From Sutterella megalosphaeroides (GTDB taxonomy: Bacteria > Pseudomonadota > Gammaproteobacteria > Burkholderiales > Burkholderiaceae_F): a stretch of DNA of 64,000 nt. The translations under genes were made by a program, and so were the position numbers. The stretch covers positions 124,001 to 188,000 of the forward strand of contig NZ_AP018786.1 in NCBI RefSeq assembly GCF_003609995.1. Reading direction: 5' to 3'. A model generated the notes under the pieces. The model did not search any database. It was not told the DNA's origin and saw nothing but the letters and a program-made list of their open reading frames with translations. Of this stretch, positions 36,681 through 43,483 are shown piece after piece (positions within the stretch are counted from its first letter, which is position 1; each line of letters starts with the position of its first letter).

Positions 36681-36726
36681 TTTGTACAATGCCCGGACCT
36701 TCTCTTTTCATGCACTTCTTCCGAAC

Positions 36727-38040
36727 ATGACTACTTCGAGCTATACGCCGCAACCCCGCGAATTGCTTCCGGAATGGATGATCGGCATTACGGACCGCGT
36801 GATGGACTACTACATCAAGCGTTACCTCCACTGCGATCCGGTGATCCTCAACACGCCGCCCGCTCCCCAGGAAGGTCACAAGTACCTCCTCTACGCACAC
36901 ATTCCCTTCTGCCACACGCTCTGCTCGTACTGCACGTTCCACCGCTTCCTCTTCAAGGAATGGAAGGCGCGCGAGTACTTCGTGAATCTGCGCAAGGAAA
37001 TGGACTACGTGAAGGCGCTCGGCTACGACTTCCACTCGATGTACATCGGCGGGGGCACAACGACGATTCTCGAGGACGAGCTCATCAAGACGATCGAGCA
37101 CGCCAAGACCCTCTTCCCCTCGATTCGCGAAGTGTCCTGCGAAACCGACCCGCAAATCATCACGACGCCGCAGTTCCGCAACCTGAAGGGGCTCGTCGAC
37201 CGCATGTCGATCGGCGTGCAGAGCTTCAACGACGACCTCCTGAAGCTCTCGGAACGCTATGAGAAGTTCGGCTCCGGCGAGCAGATCTTCGAGCGCCTGC
37301 AGTACGCCCAGGAACTCTTCCCCACCTGCAACATCGACATGATGTTCGGCTTCCGCGGTCAGACGCTCGACATGCTCCACGACGACATGGACAAGATCGC
37401 GCGCCTCAACCCGCGCCAGGTGACGACCTATCCGCTCATGGTGACGTCGCAGACGAAAAAGAGCGTGAAGAACGTCATCGCCGCCGGCGGCAATCAGCTC
37501 GCCGACCAGTACCGCGTGATTCTTGACACGCTCGGCAGCCGCTACAACCACCTCACGAGCTGGACCTTCGGCCGTACGAACGACGAAGGGTTCGACGAAT
37601 ACGTCGTCGACTACGACGAGTACCTCGGCGTGGGTTCGGGAGCGTTCAGCTTCCTCGGCGACAGCCTCTACGTCAACACGTTCAGCCTGCGCCGCTATGC
37701 CGAACGCATCGCCGCGGGCCACACGGGCGTCGAGCGCCGCCGCCAGTTCGACAAGCACGCCATCATGCAGTACCGCCTGATGCTCGGCCTCTTCTCGCAC
37801 CGCCTGTCGCGTCGCTACTTCCGCGAGGTGCACGGGGTCGACCTCGACCGTTACCTCCTGAAGGAAATGCTCGGCCTCAAGCTTTCGGGCGCCATCAAGG
37901 ACGACCCGAACGATCCGGACAACATCATCGTGACGGATGCCGGGAAGTTCCTCGGTCTTGTCATGATGAAGGCCTTCTATTCGGGCATGGACAACGTGCG
38001 CGCCGAACTGCGCGCTCCCCTCAAGGAAGCAGACATGTAA
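36727..38040 (+). CDS. HemN/HemW-like radical SAM protein
   Basis: The 437-residue protein has the radical SAM cysteine motif in HIPFCHTLCSYC (CxxxCxxC). The GGGTTTILE glycine motif, the SIGVQSFN segment and IDMMFGFRGQT mark the coproporphyrinogen oxidase-like group. HemN itself has a different cysteine neighbourhood (CxxxCxxCGC), so the substrate is not certain. Members of this group act in heme synthesis or degradation or as heme chaperones. The C-terminal domain is HemN-like (YRLMLGLFS). The ATG has no strong ribosome site. It stands between two terminators, so it is probably its own transcript upstream of the hydrogenase cluster. Confidence 0.72.
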   Translation: MTTSSYTPQPRELLPEWMIGITDRVMDYYIKRYLHCDPVILNTPPAPQEGHKYLLYAHIPFCHTLCSYCTFHRFLFKEWKAREYFVNLRKEMDYVKALGYDFHSMYIGGGTTTILEDELIKTIEHAKTLFPSIREVSCETDPQIITTPQFRNLKGLVDRMSIGVQSFNDDLLKLSERYEKFGSGEQIFERLQYAQELFPTCNIDMMFGFRGQTLDMLHDDMDKIARLNPRQVTTYPLMVTSQTKKSVKNVIAAGGNQLADQYRVILDTLGSRYNHLTSWTFGRTNDEGFDEYVVDYDEYLGVGSGAFSFLGDSLYVNTFSLRRYAERIAAGHTGVERRRQFDKHAIMQYRLMLGLFSHRLSRRYFREVHGVDLDRYLLKEMLGLKLSGAIKDDPNDPDNIIVTDAGKFLGLVMMKAFYSGMDNVRAELRAPLKEADM

Positions 38041-38600: not shown

Positions 38601-39956
38601 ATGACGGATACGATCAAGGTCCATACGTTCCTCCCGGGCGACAACGCCCGCGGGGAAAATGGCCCCGCCTTCGACGGCAATCTTCGCAAGGGCGAACTGC
38701 GTGGGATCATCCACATCAACAAAGACAACTGCGTCGGGTGCGACACCTGCCGCAAGTTCTGCCCGGTCGACGCCATCAAGGGCGGTCTCGGCGCCAAGCA
38801 CGAAATCGTCGAAGACGCGTGCCTCTACTGCGGTCAGTGCCTGATCGCCTGCCCGTTCAACGCGATCGAGCAGATGAGCTTCGTCGACGAAGTCGAACAC
38901 GTCCTCGCCGACAAGGACCGCGTCGTCGTGGCCCATCCCTCGCCCGCCGTTCGCGTTTCGCTCTGCGAAGAATTCGGCGGCGAACCCGGCGCGCTCACGA
39001 CCGAACAGATGGTCAACGCGCTTGAAAAGCTCGGCTTCGTGGTCTACGACTGCAACAGCTCGGCCGACCAGACCATCATCGAAGAAGGCACGGAATTCGT
39101 TAAGAAGATCCAGTACTGGATCCTCGGCGAACGCGGCCCGGAAGTCGACGAACAGGGCAAGCACCCGTTCCCGCACTTCACGTCCTGCTGCCCGGCCTGG
39201 GTGAAGAACGCCGAAACGTATCACGCCGACATGCTTCCGCACCTCTCCACGGCGAAGTCCCCGCTCCAGATGGGCGGCACGCTGGCCAAGACCTGGGCTG
39301 CGAAGTACGTTCTCAAGTGCGATCCCCGCAAGATCTATTTCGTCTCCGTCACGCCCTGCACGGCCAAGATCTTCGAAGCTTCGCGTCCTGAAATGAACAC
39401 GGCCTGGCGTTACCTCATCGCCAACAAGGACATCCCGAAGGACACGCCCTCCTTCCAGGACATCGACGCCTCGCTCACGGCCCGCGACATCGCCGAACTC
39501 ATGCGCCGCAAGGGTATCAATCCCCTGCTCGAACCGAAGACCCGCGAACGTCGTCCGCTCGAAGTGTATTCGGGCGCCGGCACGATCTTCGGCTGCTCGG
39601 GCGGCGTGATGGAAGCCGCTCTGCGTACGGCTTACTTCGCTCTTTCCGGCGAAGACCTCAAGGACGGCAACATCACGGTTGTCCGCGGCAACGACAACGC
39701 CATCGTCGAAGCGACCATCCCCGTGCCCATCAAGGCCCTCGGCGGCAAGACCTTCGAAGTCCGCGTTTGCGTCGTCAACGGTGCGAACCAGGGCCTCAAG
39801 GAAGTTCTCAACCGCGTCCGCGTCGACAAGAATCGTTACCACTTCATCGAAGTCATGAACTGCCCGGGCGGTTGCGTCAACGGCGGCGGTCAGCCTGTTC
39901 AGCCCTCCGGCACGGCCTGGCTCCATCCGACCACCCCCCTGCCGCTGCGCATCTAA
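38601..39956 (+). CDS. hydA: Periplasmic [FeFe] hydrogenase large subunit HydA
   Basis: The 451-residue protein has two ferredoxin-type 4Fe-4S motifs at the N-terminus (C44-C54 and C74-C84). The H-cluster domain follows: TSCCPAW with C197, TPC with C253, and the C421/C425 pair in ENC-like EVMNCPGGCVNGGGQ. The order and length match the Desulfovibrio-type large subunit, which lacks the C-terminal segment supplied by a separate small subunit. It catalyses reversible H2 oxidation. Position 251, normally Met of MPC, is Thr. HydA has no signal of its own; hydB directly downstream carries a Tat signal and likely exports both. Confidence 0.95.
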   Translation: MTDTIKVHTFLPGDNARGENGPAFDGNLRKGELRGIIHINKDNCVGCDTCRKFCPVDAIKGGLGAKHEIVEDACLYCGQCLIACPFNAIEQMSFVDEVEHVLADKDRVVVAHPSPAVRVSLCEEFGGEPGALTTEQMVNALEKLGFVVYDCNSSADQTIIEEGTEFVKKIQYWILGERGPEVDEQGKHPFPHFTSCCPAWVKNAETYHADMLPHLSTAKSPLQMGGTLAKTWAAKYVLKCDPRKIYFVSVTPCTAKIFEASRPEMNTAWRYLIANKDIPKDTPSFQDIDASLTARDIAELMRRKGINPLLEPKTRERRPLEVYSGAGTIFGCSGGVMEAALRTAYFALSGEDLKDGNITVVRGNDNAIVEATIPVPIKALGGKTFEVRVCVVNGANQGLKEVLNRVRVDKNRYHFIEVMNCPGGCVNGGGQPVQPSGTAWLHPTTPLPLRI

Positions 39957-39983
39957 CTTACGAGACGCGAGGATATTTGAAAA

Positions 39984-40337
39984 ATGCTGTCTGAAAAATA
40001 CGATTACGCCGAGCGCCCCGCCGCCCTCATCCTGGGCCGTCGCGGCTTTCTGAAGGTCTGCGGCCTGTGCGTCGGCGCCGTGGCCGTCTGCGGCTACGCC
40101 ATCGGCGACCTGATCGCCCGTCGCGGCGTCATCATCAAGGCCCGCCAGGCCGGTCTTTATCAGGACGACAAGCTCTGCCAGGCCATGGGCCTCACGAGCT
40201 CGCACCAGAACGAAGTCGTCATGTCGGTCTACAAGGACCTCGGCACGAAGCCCGTGGACCACACGATGCACGAACTTCTGCACACCCATTACTACCAGCG
40301 CTCCACGCTGGCTATGACGGAGGCCAACCATGGCTAA
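39984..40337 (+). CDS. hydB: [FeFe] hydrogenase small subunit HydB with Tat signal
   Basis: The 117-residue protein begins with a twin-arginine signal (GRRGFLK, then a hydrophobic stretch to about residue 45). The rest matches the iron-hydrogenase small-subunit domain, including KARQAGLYQDDK and the ending HELLHTHYYQR. In Desulfovibrio enzymes this subunit wraps around the large subunit and drives co-export by the Tat pathway. It starts 27 bases after hydA and overlaps the cytochrome gene by 8 bases, so the three form one operon. Confidence 0.9.
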   Translation: MLSEKYDYAERPAALILGRRGFLKVCGLCVGAVAVCGYAIGDLIARRGVIIKARQAGLYQDDKLCQAMGLTSSHQNEVVMSVYKDLGTKPVDHTMHELLHTHYYQRSTLAMTEANHG

Positions 40338-41004
40338 TGCTAACGAACGCATCCTTCGCTTCCATGCCCCGGACAAGGTGTTCCACACGCTGAACGCCAT
40401 CACGTGGTTCGCCCTGCTCTTCACGGGCGCGTACGTCTATTTCTGCAACCCGTCCGACGAAGCCGCCGAACTCACGATGCTCTGGCATCTCATCCTCGGC
40501 ACCGTCTTCACGTTCAACCTCCTCGGGTTCATCGTGCTCGCTCCGGACCGCTTCGCGCTCATCCTGCGCGCGTGCCTGGAATGGGACCGCAACACCATCT
40601 ACTGGTTCCGCAACTTCGGCAACTACCCCCGCCGCTTCTTCAAGATCCCGTTCGGTCCGGAAACGGTTCCCCCGCAGGGTCGCTACAACGGCGGTCAGAA
40701 GGCCTCGTACCTGCTCTTCATGGGCATGATCGCCGCTCTCGCCGTGACGGGCTGGCTCCTCTGGCTCGGCGCTCCGCTCCTCGGCAAGATGGTCTACATG
40801 TGGATGTTCTACTTCCACGTTTGGGGCTCGATCATCGTTTCCGTGCTCGTCGTTTGCGCGCACATCCCGCTCGCTCTGCTCTCGATGGAACACTTCAAGG
40901 GCATCTGGCGCCTCGGCCCGGGGACGATCTCGGTCGAAGCCGCCGAACACCACGCTCCCGTGTGGTTCGAACGCGACGTGATCCGTACGAACATCGAAAA
41001 GTAA
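40330..41004 (+). CDS. Cytochrome b membrane subunit of the hydrogenase (FdnI/HyaC-like)
   Basis: This 224-residue protein has four hydrophobic segments and histidines in RFHAPDKVFH, LWHL and FYFHVWG, the layout of di-heme cytochrome b subunits of formate dehydrogenase and hydrogenase. It should anchor the periplasmic hydrogenase and pass electrons between it and the quinone pool. The link to hydAB is inferred from the overlapping reading frames. The exact heme ligands cannot be assigned by eye. A strong terminator follows. Confidence 0.88.
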   Translation: MANANERILRFHAPDKVFHTLNAITWFALLFTGAYVYFCNPSDEAAELTMLWHLILGTVFTFNLLGFIVLAPDRFALILRACLEWDRNTIYWFRNFGNYPRRFFKIPFGPETVPPQGRYNGGQKASYLLFMGMIAALAVTGWLLWLGAPLLGKMVYMWMFYFHVWGSIIVSVLVVCAHIPLALLSMEHFKGIWRLGPGTISVEAAEHHAPVWFERDVIRTNIEK

Positions 41005-41015
41005 TTTCGGGTTTG

Positions 41016-41024
41016 TGCTATAAG
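41016..41024 (+). promoter_or_regulatory. Extended -10-like box before the hydF terminator
   Basis: TG-C-TATAAG resembles an extended -10 element. It lies just after the cytochrome b stop and ahead of a strong terminator. A transcript from here would be short unless the terminator is read through. Confidence 0.35.
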
Positions 41025-41058
41025 CTCCTTCTCGGTCTAGGCGCCGCGAAGTAGTTCT

Positions 41059-41093
41059 AAAGGGGCCGGACAGCAGTCCGGCCCCTTTGTTTT
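41059..41093 (+). terminator. Strong intrinsic terminator between the structural and maturation genes
   Basis: A perfect 13-bp stem (AAAGGGGCCGGAC with GTCCGGCCCCTTT, loop AGCA) is followed by GTTTT. It lies between the cytochrome b gene and hydF. Confidence 0.9.
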
Positions 41094-41117
41094 CACAGAA
41101 TTTTGAGGAGACGCACC

Positions 41118-42359
41118 GTGCTGTCCACGCCCAAAGGACTTCGGCTTCACTTCGGCCTTTTCGGCAACCGCAATGCCGGAAAAAGCTCTCTCGCCAACGC
41201 CCTCACCGGGCAGCGGATTTCGATCGTGTCGGACGTGCCCGGCACCACGACGGACCCCGTGGAAAAAGCCTGCGAGCTCGCGCCTATCGGTCCCGTCGTC
41301 TTCATCGACACGGCCGGGGTCGACGACGTGGGCGATCTCGGTCAGGCCCGCGTGCGCCGCTCGCTCGCCGTCCTCGACTGGGTGGACGTCGCGATCGTCG
41401 TGACGTCCGAGCGCACGCTCTCCTCCTCCGAAAAGACGCTCCTTGCCAAAGCGCGCGAGCTCGGCACGCCCGCCGTTCTCGTTCTCAACAAGACCGACCT
41501 GCGTCCCGTGACGGACGACGAACGTCGTGCCGCCGAAGCGTTCGGCGTCGCCGTCGTGGAAACGAACGCCCGCACGGGCGAAGGCATCGACGCGCTGCGC
41601 GCCGCGCTCGTGCGGCTCGTCTCCGAGCGCACCGCGCCCGACCGTCCCCTCGTGGGCGAACTCGCGCAAGCGGGCGACACCGTCATGCTCGTGACGCCGA
41701 TCGATACCGGCGCCCCCAAGGGGCGCCTCATCCTTCCGCAGGTGCAGGCCGTGCGCGAACTGCTCGACGCGGGCGCCAAGTGCCTCGTCGTACAGGAAAA
41801 CCGCGTCGCCGAAATGCTCGACGAACTGAAGCGTCCGCCCAAATTCATCATGACGGACTCGCAGGTCGTCGAATCGGTCGCGCGTCAGAGCCCCGACTCG
41901 ATCCCGCTCACGACCTTCTCCATTCAGATGGCCTACTCGAAGAGCGACCTCGAAGAGCTCGCCGAAGGCGCCGCGGCGCTCGCGCGCCTCAAGGACGGCG
42001 ACCGCGTGCTGATTTGCGAGACGTGCAGCCACCATCCGCAAAAGGACGACATCGGTCGCGTGAAGATTCCGCGCTGGCTCCGCGAGAAGACGGGCAAGGA
42101 CCTTGTCATCGAGGTCGCCGTCGGCAAGGACTTCCCCGAAGACCTGACCCCCTATGCCGTGCTCATTCAGTGCGGCGGCTGCGTCGTCACGCGCCGCCAC
42201 ATGCTCGCCCGTCTTCGCACGTCGAAAGAACAGGGCGTTCCCATGACGAATTACGGCCTCACCATCTGCTACCTGCAGGGCGTGCTCGAACGCGTGCTCT
42301 CCTGCCACCCCGAAGCGCTCGCCCGCTATCGCGCCGCTCTTACGGAGAAAACCGAATGA
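41118..42359 (+). CDS. hydF: [FeFe] hydrogenase H-cluster maturation GTPase HydF
   Basis: The 413-residue protein has a P-loop GTPase head (GNRNAGKSS, DTAG, NKTD) and a C-terminal iron-sulfur domain with CSH (C303, H305) and QCGGC (C352, C355). HydF is the scaffold on which HydE and HydG build the two-iron subcluster before transfer to HydA. The family usually has His where Q351 stands. The GTG at 41118 is chosen because GAGGAG precedes it and the fold begins at once. The hydE start overlaps its stop (ATGA). Confidence 0.93.
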   Translation: MLSTPKGLRLHFGLFGNRNAGKSSLANALTGQRISIVSDVPGTTTDPVEKACELAPIGPVVFIDTAGVDDVGDLGQARVRRSLAVLDWVDVAIVVTSERTLSSSEKTLLAKARELGTPAVLVLNKTDLRPVTDDERRAAEAFGVAVVETNARTGEGIDALRAALVRLVSERTAPDRPLVGELAQAGDTVMLVTPIDTGAPKGRLILPQVQAVRELLDAGAKCLVVQENRVAEMLDELKRPPKFIMTDSQVVESVARQSPDSIPLTTFSIQMAYSKSDLEELAEGAAALARLKDGDRVLICETCSHHPQKDDIGRVKIPRWLREKTGKDLVIEVAVGKDFPEDLTPYAVLIQCGGCVVTRRHMLARLRTSKEQGVPMTNYGLTICYLQGVLERVLSCHPEALARYRAALTEKTE

Positions 42360-43483
42360 CCGCAACGTCCACGAAGCCCCTGTCCGAACTGCTCGCACAG
42401 ACCGAATTCTCGGACGACGACATCGTTCGTCTCCTCGGCCTGACGGACCCCGAGGAATGCGAAGCGCTGCGTCAACGCGCCTTCGACGTTACGACCGAAA
42501 AGACGGGCAACAACGTCTACCTGCGCGGCCTCATCGAGGTGAGCAACATCTGCACGGCCAACTGCCGCTACTGCGGCATTCGCAAGGACAACCACACGGT
42601 CGAACGCTACACGCTCACGGAAGAGAGCATCGTCGCGTGCGCCCTGCATGCGCTTCACGAGGGCTACGGCTCGATCGCCATTCAGGCGGGCGAACGCCGC
42701 GACCCGAAGTGGATCGCCTGGATCTCCCGACTCCTTGAGCGCATTCACAAGGAAACGGTCTGCGAGGAACTTCCCACTGGGCTCGGCGTCACGCTGAGTC
42801 TCGGGGAGCAGACGTACGAGGTCTACAAGGAGTGGGCCGAAGCGAGCGGCAATCCGACGGGATTGCGCTACCTCCTTCGCATCGAGTCGAGCAACCCCCG
42901 ACTCTTTGCGGAACTGCACTCGACGCCAGGCAAGCACGAAAAGATCCTCGAACACCGCTATCAGGCGCTGCGCGACCTGCGGCGCGCGGGCTACCAGGTG
43001 GGCACCGGCGTCATGATCGGTCTGCCCGGGCAGACGCTCGAAGACCTCATGCGCGACATCCGCACGTTCGGCGAGATGGGTGCCGACATGATCGGCATGG
43101 GCCCCTACATCACGAGCAACGGCGCGGACATGACCGCGCTCGGCATGATGGAAAAGCGCCCCCTCATGCAGCTCGCCCTCAACATGATCAGCACGACCCG
43201 CCTCGTGATGCCCGACATCAACATCGCGGCCGCCACCGCGCTCGAAACCCTGGAGCCCAACGGGCGCGTGCGGGGCATTCGTCACGGCTGCAACGTCATC
43301 ATGCCGAACATCACGCCGCAAACGACGCGCGCCTCCTATCAGCTCTACGACAACAAGGCGGGCACCGAAGTCGGTCCCGAATCGAACGTGCTCGTCGAGC
43401 GCAACATCGTCGAAATGACGGGACGCACGCTCGGGCTCAACCTCCTCGGCTCCTCGCGCCGCTGGGCGGCTCGAACCGCCTGA
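42356..43483 (+). CDS. hydE: [FeFe] hydrogenase radical SAM maturase HydE
   Basis: The 375-residue radical SAM protein has CxxxCxxC in CTANCRYCGIR and the HydE-typical VMIGLPGQTLEDL and GPYITSNGAD segments. HydE helps make the azadithiolate-bridged di-iron unit of the H-cluster from a HydG-made iron precursor. HydG is not encoded in this window. Translation is probably coupled to hydF through the ATGA overlap. The length and order match HydE closely. Confidence 0.93.
   Translation: MTATSTKPLSELLAQTEFSDDDIVRLLGLTDPEECEALRQRAFDVTTEKTGNNVYLRGLIEVSNICTANCRYCGIRKDNHTVERYTLTEESIVACALHALHEGYGSIAIQAGERRDPKWIAWISRLLERIHKETVCEELPTGLGVTLSLGEQTYEVYKEWAEASGNPTGLRYLLRIESSNPRLFAELHSTPGKHEKILEHRYQALRDLRRAGYQVGTGVMIGLPGQTLEDLMRDIRTFGEMGADMIGMGPYITSNGADMTALGMMEKRPLMQLALNMISTTRLVMPDINIAAATALETLEPNGRVRGIRHGCNVIMPNITPQTTRASYQLYDNKAGTEVGPESNVLVERNIVEMTGRTLGLNLLGSSRRWAARTA

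Follow-up and report, generated by a model that had tools for sequence, protein, structure and literature searches.

The kind of enzyme treated here is already known. The same structural gene cluster has been described in Sulfurospirillum cavolei and Campylobacter, with Sutterella and Parasutterella named among the closest relatives (PMC4794192; 2016). In Sporomusa ovata, the hydrogenase band from the membrane contained a [NiFe] subunit along with HydA2 and HydB2, whose annotation is that of a periplasmic [FeFe] hydrogenase linked to cytochrome b; the membranes showed H2-dependent reduction of a quinone analogue, and electron transfer to quinone was proposed (PMC9430772). Here we analysed the corresponding locus of Sutterella megalosphaeroides, which lies in a stretch of 64,000 nucleotides (the window, positions 124001-188000 of the single-contig 2.73-Mb genome). 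The genes hydA, hydB with a twin-arginine translocation (Tat) signal, and a di-heme cytochrome b are contiguous in this locus, as in the HydA-HydB-HydC type, and most likely encode a respiratory, periplasmic, cytochrome-b-linked [FeFe] hydrogenase of that type, from which H2 uptake is expected; as judged from the sequence, both the activity and its direction are probable. Nothing relevant on Sutterella hydrogenases beyond PMC4794192 was found in the open literature. What we add is the conservation of the three genes across Sutterellaceae, the location of hydG, the prediction of a Tat anchor in HydB and a point concerning classification.

In Sulfurospirillum cavolei, Campylobacter rectus and C. 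ureolyticus, the three structural genes stand in the same order as in Sutterella (PMC4794192), and the HydA proteins of Campylobacteraceae are 62-64% identical to that of Sutterella. However, hydG, hydE and hydF come directly next in Sulfurospirillum and Campylobacter, whereas in Sutterella hydF and hydE lie past a terminator-like hairpin and hydG is distant and of the Negativicutes type. The Sporomusa ovata HydA2B2C2 enzyme shares with Sutterella the Tat-bearing HydB2 and the di-heme cytochrome b HydC2 (PMC9430772), the identity between Sporomusa acidovorans and Sutterella being about 46% for HydA and about 29% for the cytochrome b. The chain of Sporomusa ovata ends at methylene-tetrahydrofolate reductase, while no such end is proposed for Sutterella. 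The Shewanella loci examined also have the order hydA, hydB, cytochrome b (SO3921 of Shewanella oneidensis being hydB), with 46-47% identity to Sutterella for HydA and 24-27% for the cytochrome b, and with a complete set of maturase genes adjacent. The periplasmic HydAB of Desulfovibrio (1hfe, 8rtg) likewise has two subunits, with the Tat signal on HydB and a HydA devoid of a signal. The Sutterella HydA differs from it by two insertions and by a Thr in the MPC motif, and the linker between Tat motif and mature domain of HydB has 38 residues with an AVA site in Desulfovibrio versus 35 residues in Sutterella. The Desulfovibrio enzyme is not known to include a cytochrome b.

The product of hydA (38601..39956, plus strand) has 451 amino acids, with two [4Fe-4S] motifs and an H-cluster domain, and lacks a signal peptide of its own. 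It matches Pfam PF02906 (Fe_hyd_lg_C; E=4.3e-66), and its closest solved structures are those of Desulfovibrio HydA (E=5e-91). Conserved cysteines are found at positions 44/47/50/54, 74/77/80/84 and 196/197/253/421/425, and the eight of ferredoxin type as well as all those of the H-cluster are invariant in 12 aligned HydAs. The H-cluster motifs TSCCPAW, TPCTAK and EVMNCPGGC follow the group A patterns TSCCP, xPCxxK and ExMxCxxGC. In a quick tree with long outgroup branches, the HydAs of Sutterellaceae form one clade (support 99) whose sister group is Campylobacteraceae (support 100), followed by Thermodesulfobacteria and Archaeoglobaceae, with Negativicutes and Shewanella further out. Relatives with 83-90% identity are present in Sutterella massiliensis, S. 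seckii and S. wadsworthensis. A HydA tree was the check named by the original prediction, an annotation made from the sequence of the window, and tree, motifs and profile agree in placing the protein within the [FeFe] hydrogenases, as had been claimed.

The cytochrome b gene (hydC-type, FdnI-like; 40330..41004, plus strand) overlaps hydB by 8 bases and encodes 224 amino acids with four transmembrane helices. Its product matches Pfam PF01292 (Ni_hydr_CYTB; E=1.8e-18), and its best solved relative by sequence is E. coli FdnI (1kqf_C; E=6.6e-6). The AlphaFold model, with a predicted local distance difference test (pLDDT) value of 92.7, matched the same chain in Foldseek with TM-scores of 0.74/0.76. 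Residues His19, 53, 163 and 178 together with N120, G122, Q123 and K124 are invariant in 53 bacterial and archaeal cytochrome b sequences, the latter four being aligned to N110, G112, Q113 and K114 of FdnI. From what is known of FdnI, we take the four histidines to be heme ligands and the NxGQK motif to contribute quinone-site residues. Fold, heme histidines and quinone motif are common to both proteins, and the earlier assignment of a four-helix cytochrome b of the FdnI type is upheld by all of these features. FdnI reduces quinone on the cytoplasmic side of the membrane; it belongs to a molybdenum enzyme in which the Fe-S subunit has a C-terminal helix as its anchor, whereas in Sutterella the partner would have the N-terminal Tat helix for this purpose.

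The small subunit HydB (39984..40337, plus strand; 117 amino acids) was recognised by Pfam PF02256 (Fe_hyd_SSU; E=2.8e-16) and by its match to 1hfe_S (E=8e-8). The twin-arginine motif LGRRGFLK predicted for it is present, followed by a hydrophobic helix that leads straight into the mature domain, and TatC is encoded in the genome. Since HydB holds the only export signal, as in Desulfovibrio, HydA must be carried along in export. The spacing between the twin arginine and the start of the mature motif RxxGLYxDD amounts to 35 residues in 73 out of 73 cytochrome-b loci with a readable small subunit, while in cytochrome-less HydBs (n=4) it is 38 (Desulfovibrio), 46, 48 and 48, each with a cleavage-like site. 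Across residues 19-54, not a single length variant occurs among 59 aligned HydBs, although the flanking segments do vary in length; mean identity over residues 21-43 of these sequences is only 34%. No cleavage site conserved among the HydBs with 35-residue spacing was found. In the AlphaFold model, residues 19-68 form one continuous helix, with pLDDT values of 91-95 for residues 21-40. The fixed spacing, the absence of a conserved cleavage site and the continuous modelled helix together indicate that the Tat helix is probably not cleaved and serves as an anchor. For the HydBs of cytochrome-b-linked [FeFe] hydrogenases in general, we consider it reasonably likely that they are Tat signal-anchored, with the helix left uncut, continuing rigidly into the HydA-binding domain and packed beside the cytochrome b. 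Uncleaved Tat anchors are known from Rieske proteins (PMC3623810), and our literature search found no paper reporting one for HydB.

The order hydA-hydB-cytochrome b recurs in some 30 further loci of Sutterellaceae, with HydB identities of about 46-90%, and therefore is not due to chance. The trio is also present in Campylobacteraceae, Archaeoglobaceae, Negativicutes, Shewanella and Syntrophales; in the public loci fetched, hydA is nearly always followed by hydB and then by the cytochrome b gene where the contig extends far enough. Exceptions lacking the cytochrome are two Thermodesulfobacterium species and one Nitrospiraceae bacterium (L082, L083, L084), which fall inside the cytochrome-b clade of HydA. 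In both exceptions that were read (L082, L084), an aspartase gene takes the place of the cytochrome. The HydB linker of these relatives without the cytochrome is longer and cleavage-like. A separate hydB gene was detected in 7 of 300 Burkholderiales genomes, all belonging to Sutterella-like genera (two further hits were C-terminal domains of larger proteins), and a free-standing hydB in 2 of 398 Pseudomonadota genomes, namely that of the window and one other. The claim that this layout is unusual for betaproteobacteria thus holds at the level of the order. It does not hold within Sutterellaceae, where the layout is the norm, and earlier work has reported it from Campylobacter, Sulfurospirillum, Shewanella and Sporomusa (PMC4794192, PMC9430772). 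One canine Sutterella metagenome-assembled genome contains a second hydA-hydB-cytochrome b set, in which hydB is interrupted by a stop and the reading frame of the cytochrome b is broken; this damage may be an assembly error, as the contig has unclear bases.

In the mechanism we propose, HydA would be matured in the cytoplasm, bound to HydB and exported in folded form through the Tat system as a hitch-hiker. HydB would remain uncut, its Tat helix being kept in the membrane beside the cytochrome b with the N-terminus inside, so as to hold HydA on the outer face. H2 would be split outside, its electrons would travel through the clusters of HydA to the outer heme and on to the inner heme, and menaquinone would be reduced with cytoplasmic protons, which would make up half of a proton-motive redox loop. 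We infer this half loop because the heme and quinone residues are FdnI-like and FdnI reduces quinone on the cytoplasmic side. The other half would be provided by one of the many molybdopterin or other terminal reductases of the cell. The genome yielded 14 or more distinct matches to molybdopterin oxidoreductases, which are possible electron sinks; some of them will be complex I or assimilatory enzymes, and acceptors look plentiful nonetheless. The redox potentials make electron transfer from H2 to menaquinone strongly downhill and the reverse strongly uphill, so that uptake is the likelier of the two directions that the original prediction had left open, and the organism probably respires hydrogen.

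Several observations speak against a respiratory complex anchored in this way. HydA scores below the cut-off of NCBIfam TIGR02512 (365.5 versus 405.95 bits), and its H-cluster loop has Thr in place of Met, the second motif being TPC in Sutterella and MPC in Desulfovibrio. Among the relatives, Thr, Met, Tyr or Ala is found at this position; Campylobacter majalis is also under the cut-off (388.2), while Shewanella (499.9) and Sporomusa (450.2) pass it. Given that no catalytic cysteine is missing and that the protein falls in the tree with enzymes above the cut-off, we regard the Sutterella HydA as a divergent [FeFe] subclade rather than a different enzyme. Concerning the quinone, a search of the genome for MenD and for MqnA/MqnD found none of them. 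The only UbiA-family protein in the genome is MenA-like (C1:216894-217577; L120:1387-2352), which speaks for menaquinone. With no MenD or MqnA/MqnD found, the organism must scavenge a precursor of its quinone, and menaquinone seems to be made from a naphthoate precursor obtained in this way. As for the anchor, the contrast with cytochrome-less HydBs rests on four sequences, several HydBs show a weak small-x-Ala site (for example GYA) compatible with cleavage, and the overall confidence of the AlphaFold model of HydB is modest (pLDDT 71; predicted TM-score 0.33).

The same complex could instead work mainly in reverse, with quinol or a low-potential donor reducing the cytochrome b and H2 being released into the periplasm, so that the complex would act as an electron valve. 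Catalysis by [FeFe] hydrogenases is reversible and in many organisms biased towards evolution; however, menaquinol can reduce protons against an appreciable H2 pressure only with the help of a large proton-motive force, and a cytochrome of the FdnI type normally feeds the quinone pool. The chain of Sporomusa was termed bidirectional by Kremp et al. (PMC9430772), and the two further [FeFe] enzymes without export signals in the Sutterella genome suggest that H2 is handled in several ways, but this genome is also rich in oxidoreductases able to consume quinol. Taking these points together, we consider the reverse working unlikely.

Clearly less probable still is a soluble periplasmic HydAB of the Desulfovibrio type, in which the HydB signal would be cleaved, electrons would pass to a soluble cytochrome c and the cytochrome b would serve another enzyme. 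Among solved proteins, the Desulfovibrio enzyme is indeed the nearest to both HydA and HydB, and Shewanella HydB, listed as a Tat substrate, is also listed as periplasmic (PMC3623810). Yet the cytochrome b gene overlaps hydB and, with few exceptions, comes after it in the related loci of all phyla compared, and the fixed 35-residue spacing, the lack of a conserved cleavage site and the continuous helix speak against a cleaved signal, the longer and cleavage-like linkers being those of the Thermodesulfobacterium and Nitrospiraceae relatives without the cytochrome. A ferredoxin-coupled fermentative hydrogenase, the role HydDB gives for the A1 class of H2-evolving enzymes that architecture alone would lead one to expect here, is scarcely credible, since the Tat-dependent small subunit and the membrane cytochrome b predict an enzyme located outside the cytoplasm and away from ferredoxin, and HydDB itself states that gene context is needed for any assignment within group A (PMC5037454).

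Downstream of the cytochrome b gene, a terminator-like hairpin with a 10-bp perfect stem and a T-rich tail (41062..41085, plus strand) separates the structural genes from hydF. A consensus scan did not list it; hairpins of differing sequence occupy the equivalent place in most Sutterellaceae loci. Since the hairpin stands before hydF and recurs in this manner, hydA, hydB and the cytochrome b gene are probably transcribed together and separately from hydFE. The gene hydF (41118..42359, plus strand) encodes the H-cluster maturation GTPase (TIGR03918, 517.6 bits versus a cut-off of 325.55) and most likely starts at the GTG at 41118, behind a GAGGAG site. The radical S-adenosylmethionine (SAM) H-cluster maturase is encoded by hydE (42356..43483, plus strand; TIGR03956, 275.6 bits versus a cut-off of 254.6), whose most likely start, the ATG at 42356, gives a 4-base overlap with the end of hydF. 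With these two, all five genes of the original prediction are found in their places, each assigned by Pfam or NCBIfam. The hydG gene lies outside the window on the same chromosome, almost 1 Mb away (C1:1108155-1109570; L008:7153-8574; 846 bits), so that HydE, HydF and HydG, the maturases looked for with a group A enzyme, are all encoded in the genome and an enzyme left immature for want of HydG is ruled out. In a comparison that sampled only the loci fetched for HydA, Sutterella HydG clusters with Negativicutes (support 100, 69% identity) and not with Campylobacteraceae, the closest group for HydA. The structural and maturation genes therefore appear to have differing histories, which points to a mosaic origin.

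Directly upstream of hydA in most Sutterellaceae is a HemN-like radical SAM gene of the PRK08629 family (624 bits; window positions 36724-38040). We considered it as a dedicated factor for heme or the H-cluster and rejected it: the gene is also present in two relatives without this hydA (G015, G016), unrelated genes (FadD, RF3, UraA) equally neighbour hydA in Sutterellaceae loci, and outside this family the HemN-like gene was not seen next to hydA. We keep it as synteny only.

The genome encodes three [FeFe] large subunits, one of them in the window, and one [NiFe] large subunit. The second [FeFe] hydrogenase (C1:1608373-1609470; L004:9305-11374) is a 689-amino-acid fusion with rubredoxin, rubrerythrin and a further rubredoxin-like domain, an arrangement that suggests H2-driven peroxide removal. 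The third (C1:2136101-2137084; L005:8850-12881, minus strand) has a NuoG-like N-terminus and is neighboured by a 733-amino-acid protein with a short NuoF-like region and a glutamate-synthase small-subunit domain; by its domains and neighbour, it is of the glutamate-synthase-linked A2 kind.

If the anchor prediction is true, the Tat helix of HydB would take the part that a C-terminal helix plays in formate dehydrogenase N and in the [NiFe] hydrogenases of group 1, and the respiratory [FeFe] subgroup could be recognised by the Tat-to-domain spacing alone. This fixed spacing offers a simple way of distinguishing the membrane-linked from the soluble form by sequence. The HydDB label A1, which stands for fermentative H2 production, would misstate the role of the Sutterella enzyme. 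Both Sutterella and Parasutterella occur commonly in the gut. If the enzyme runs as predicted, they respire H2 and compete for it with methanogens and sulfate reducers, and surveys that file [FeFe] group A1 as fermentative producers would count the two genera as sources of H2 instead of consumers.

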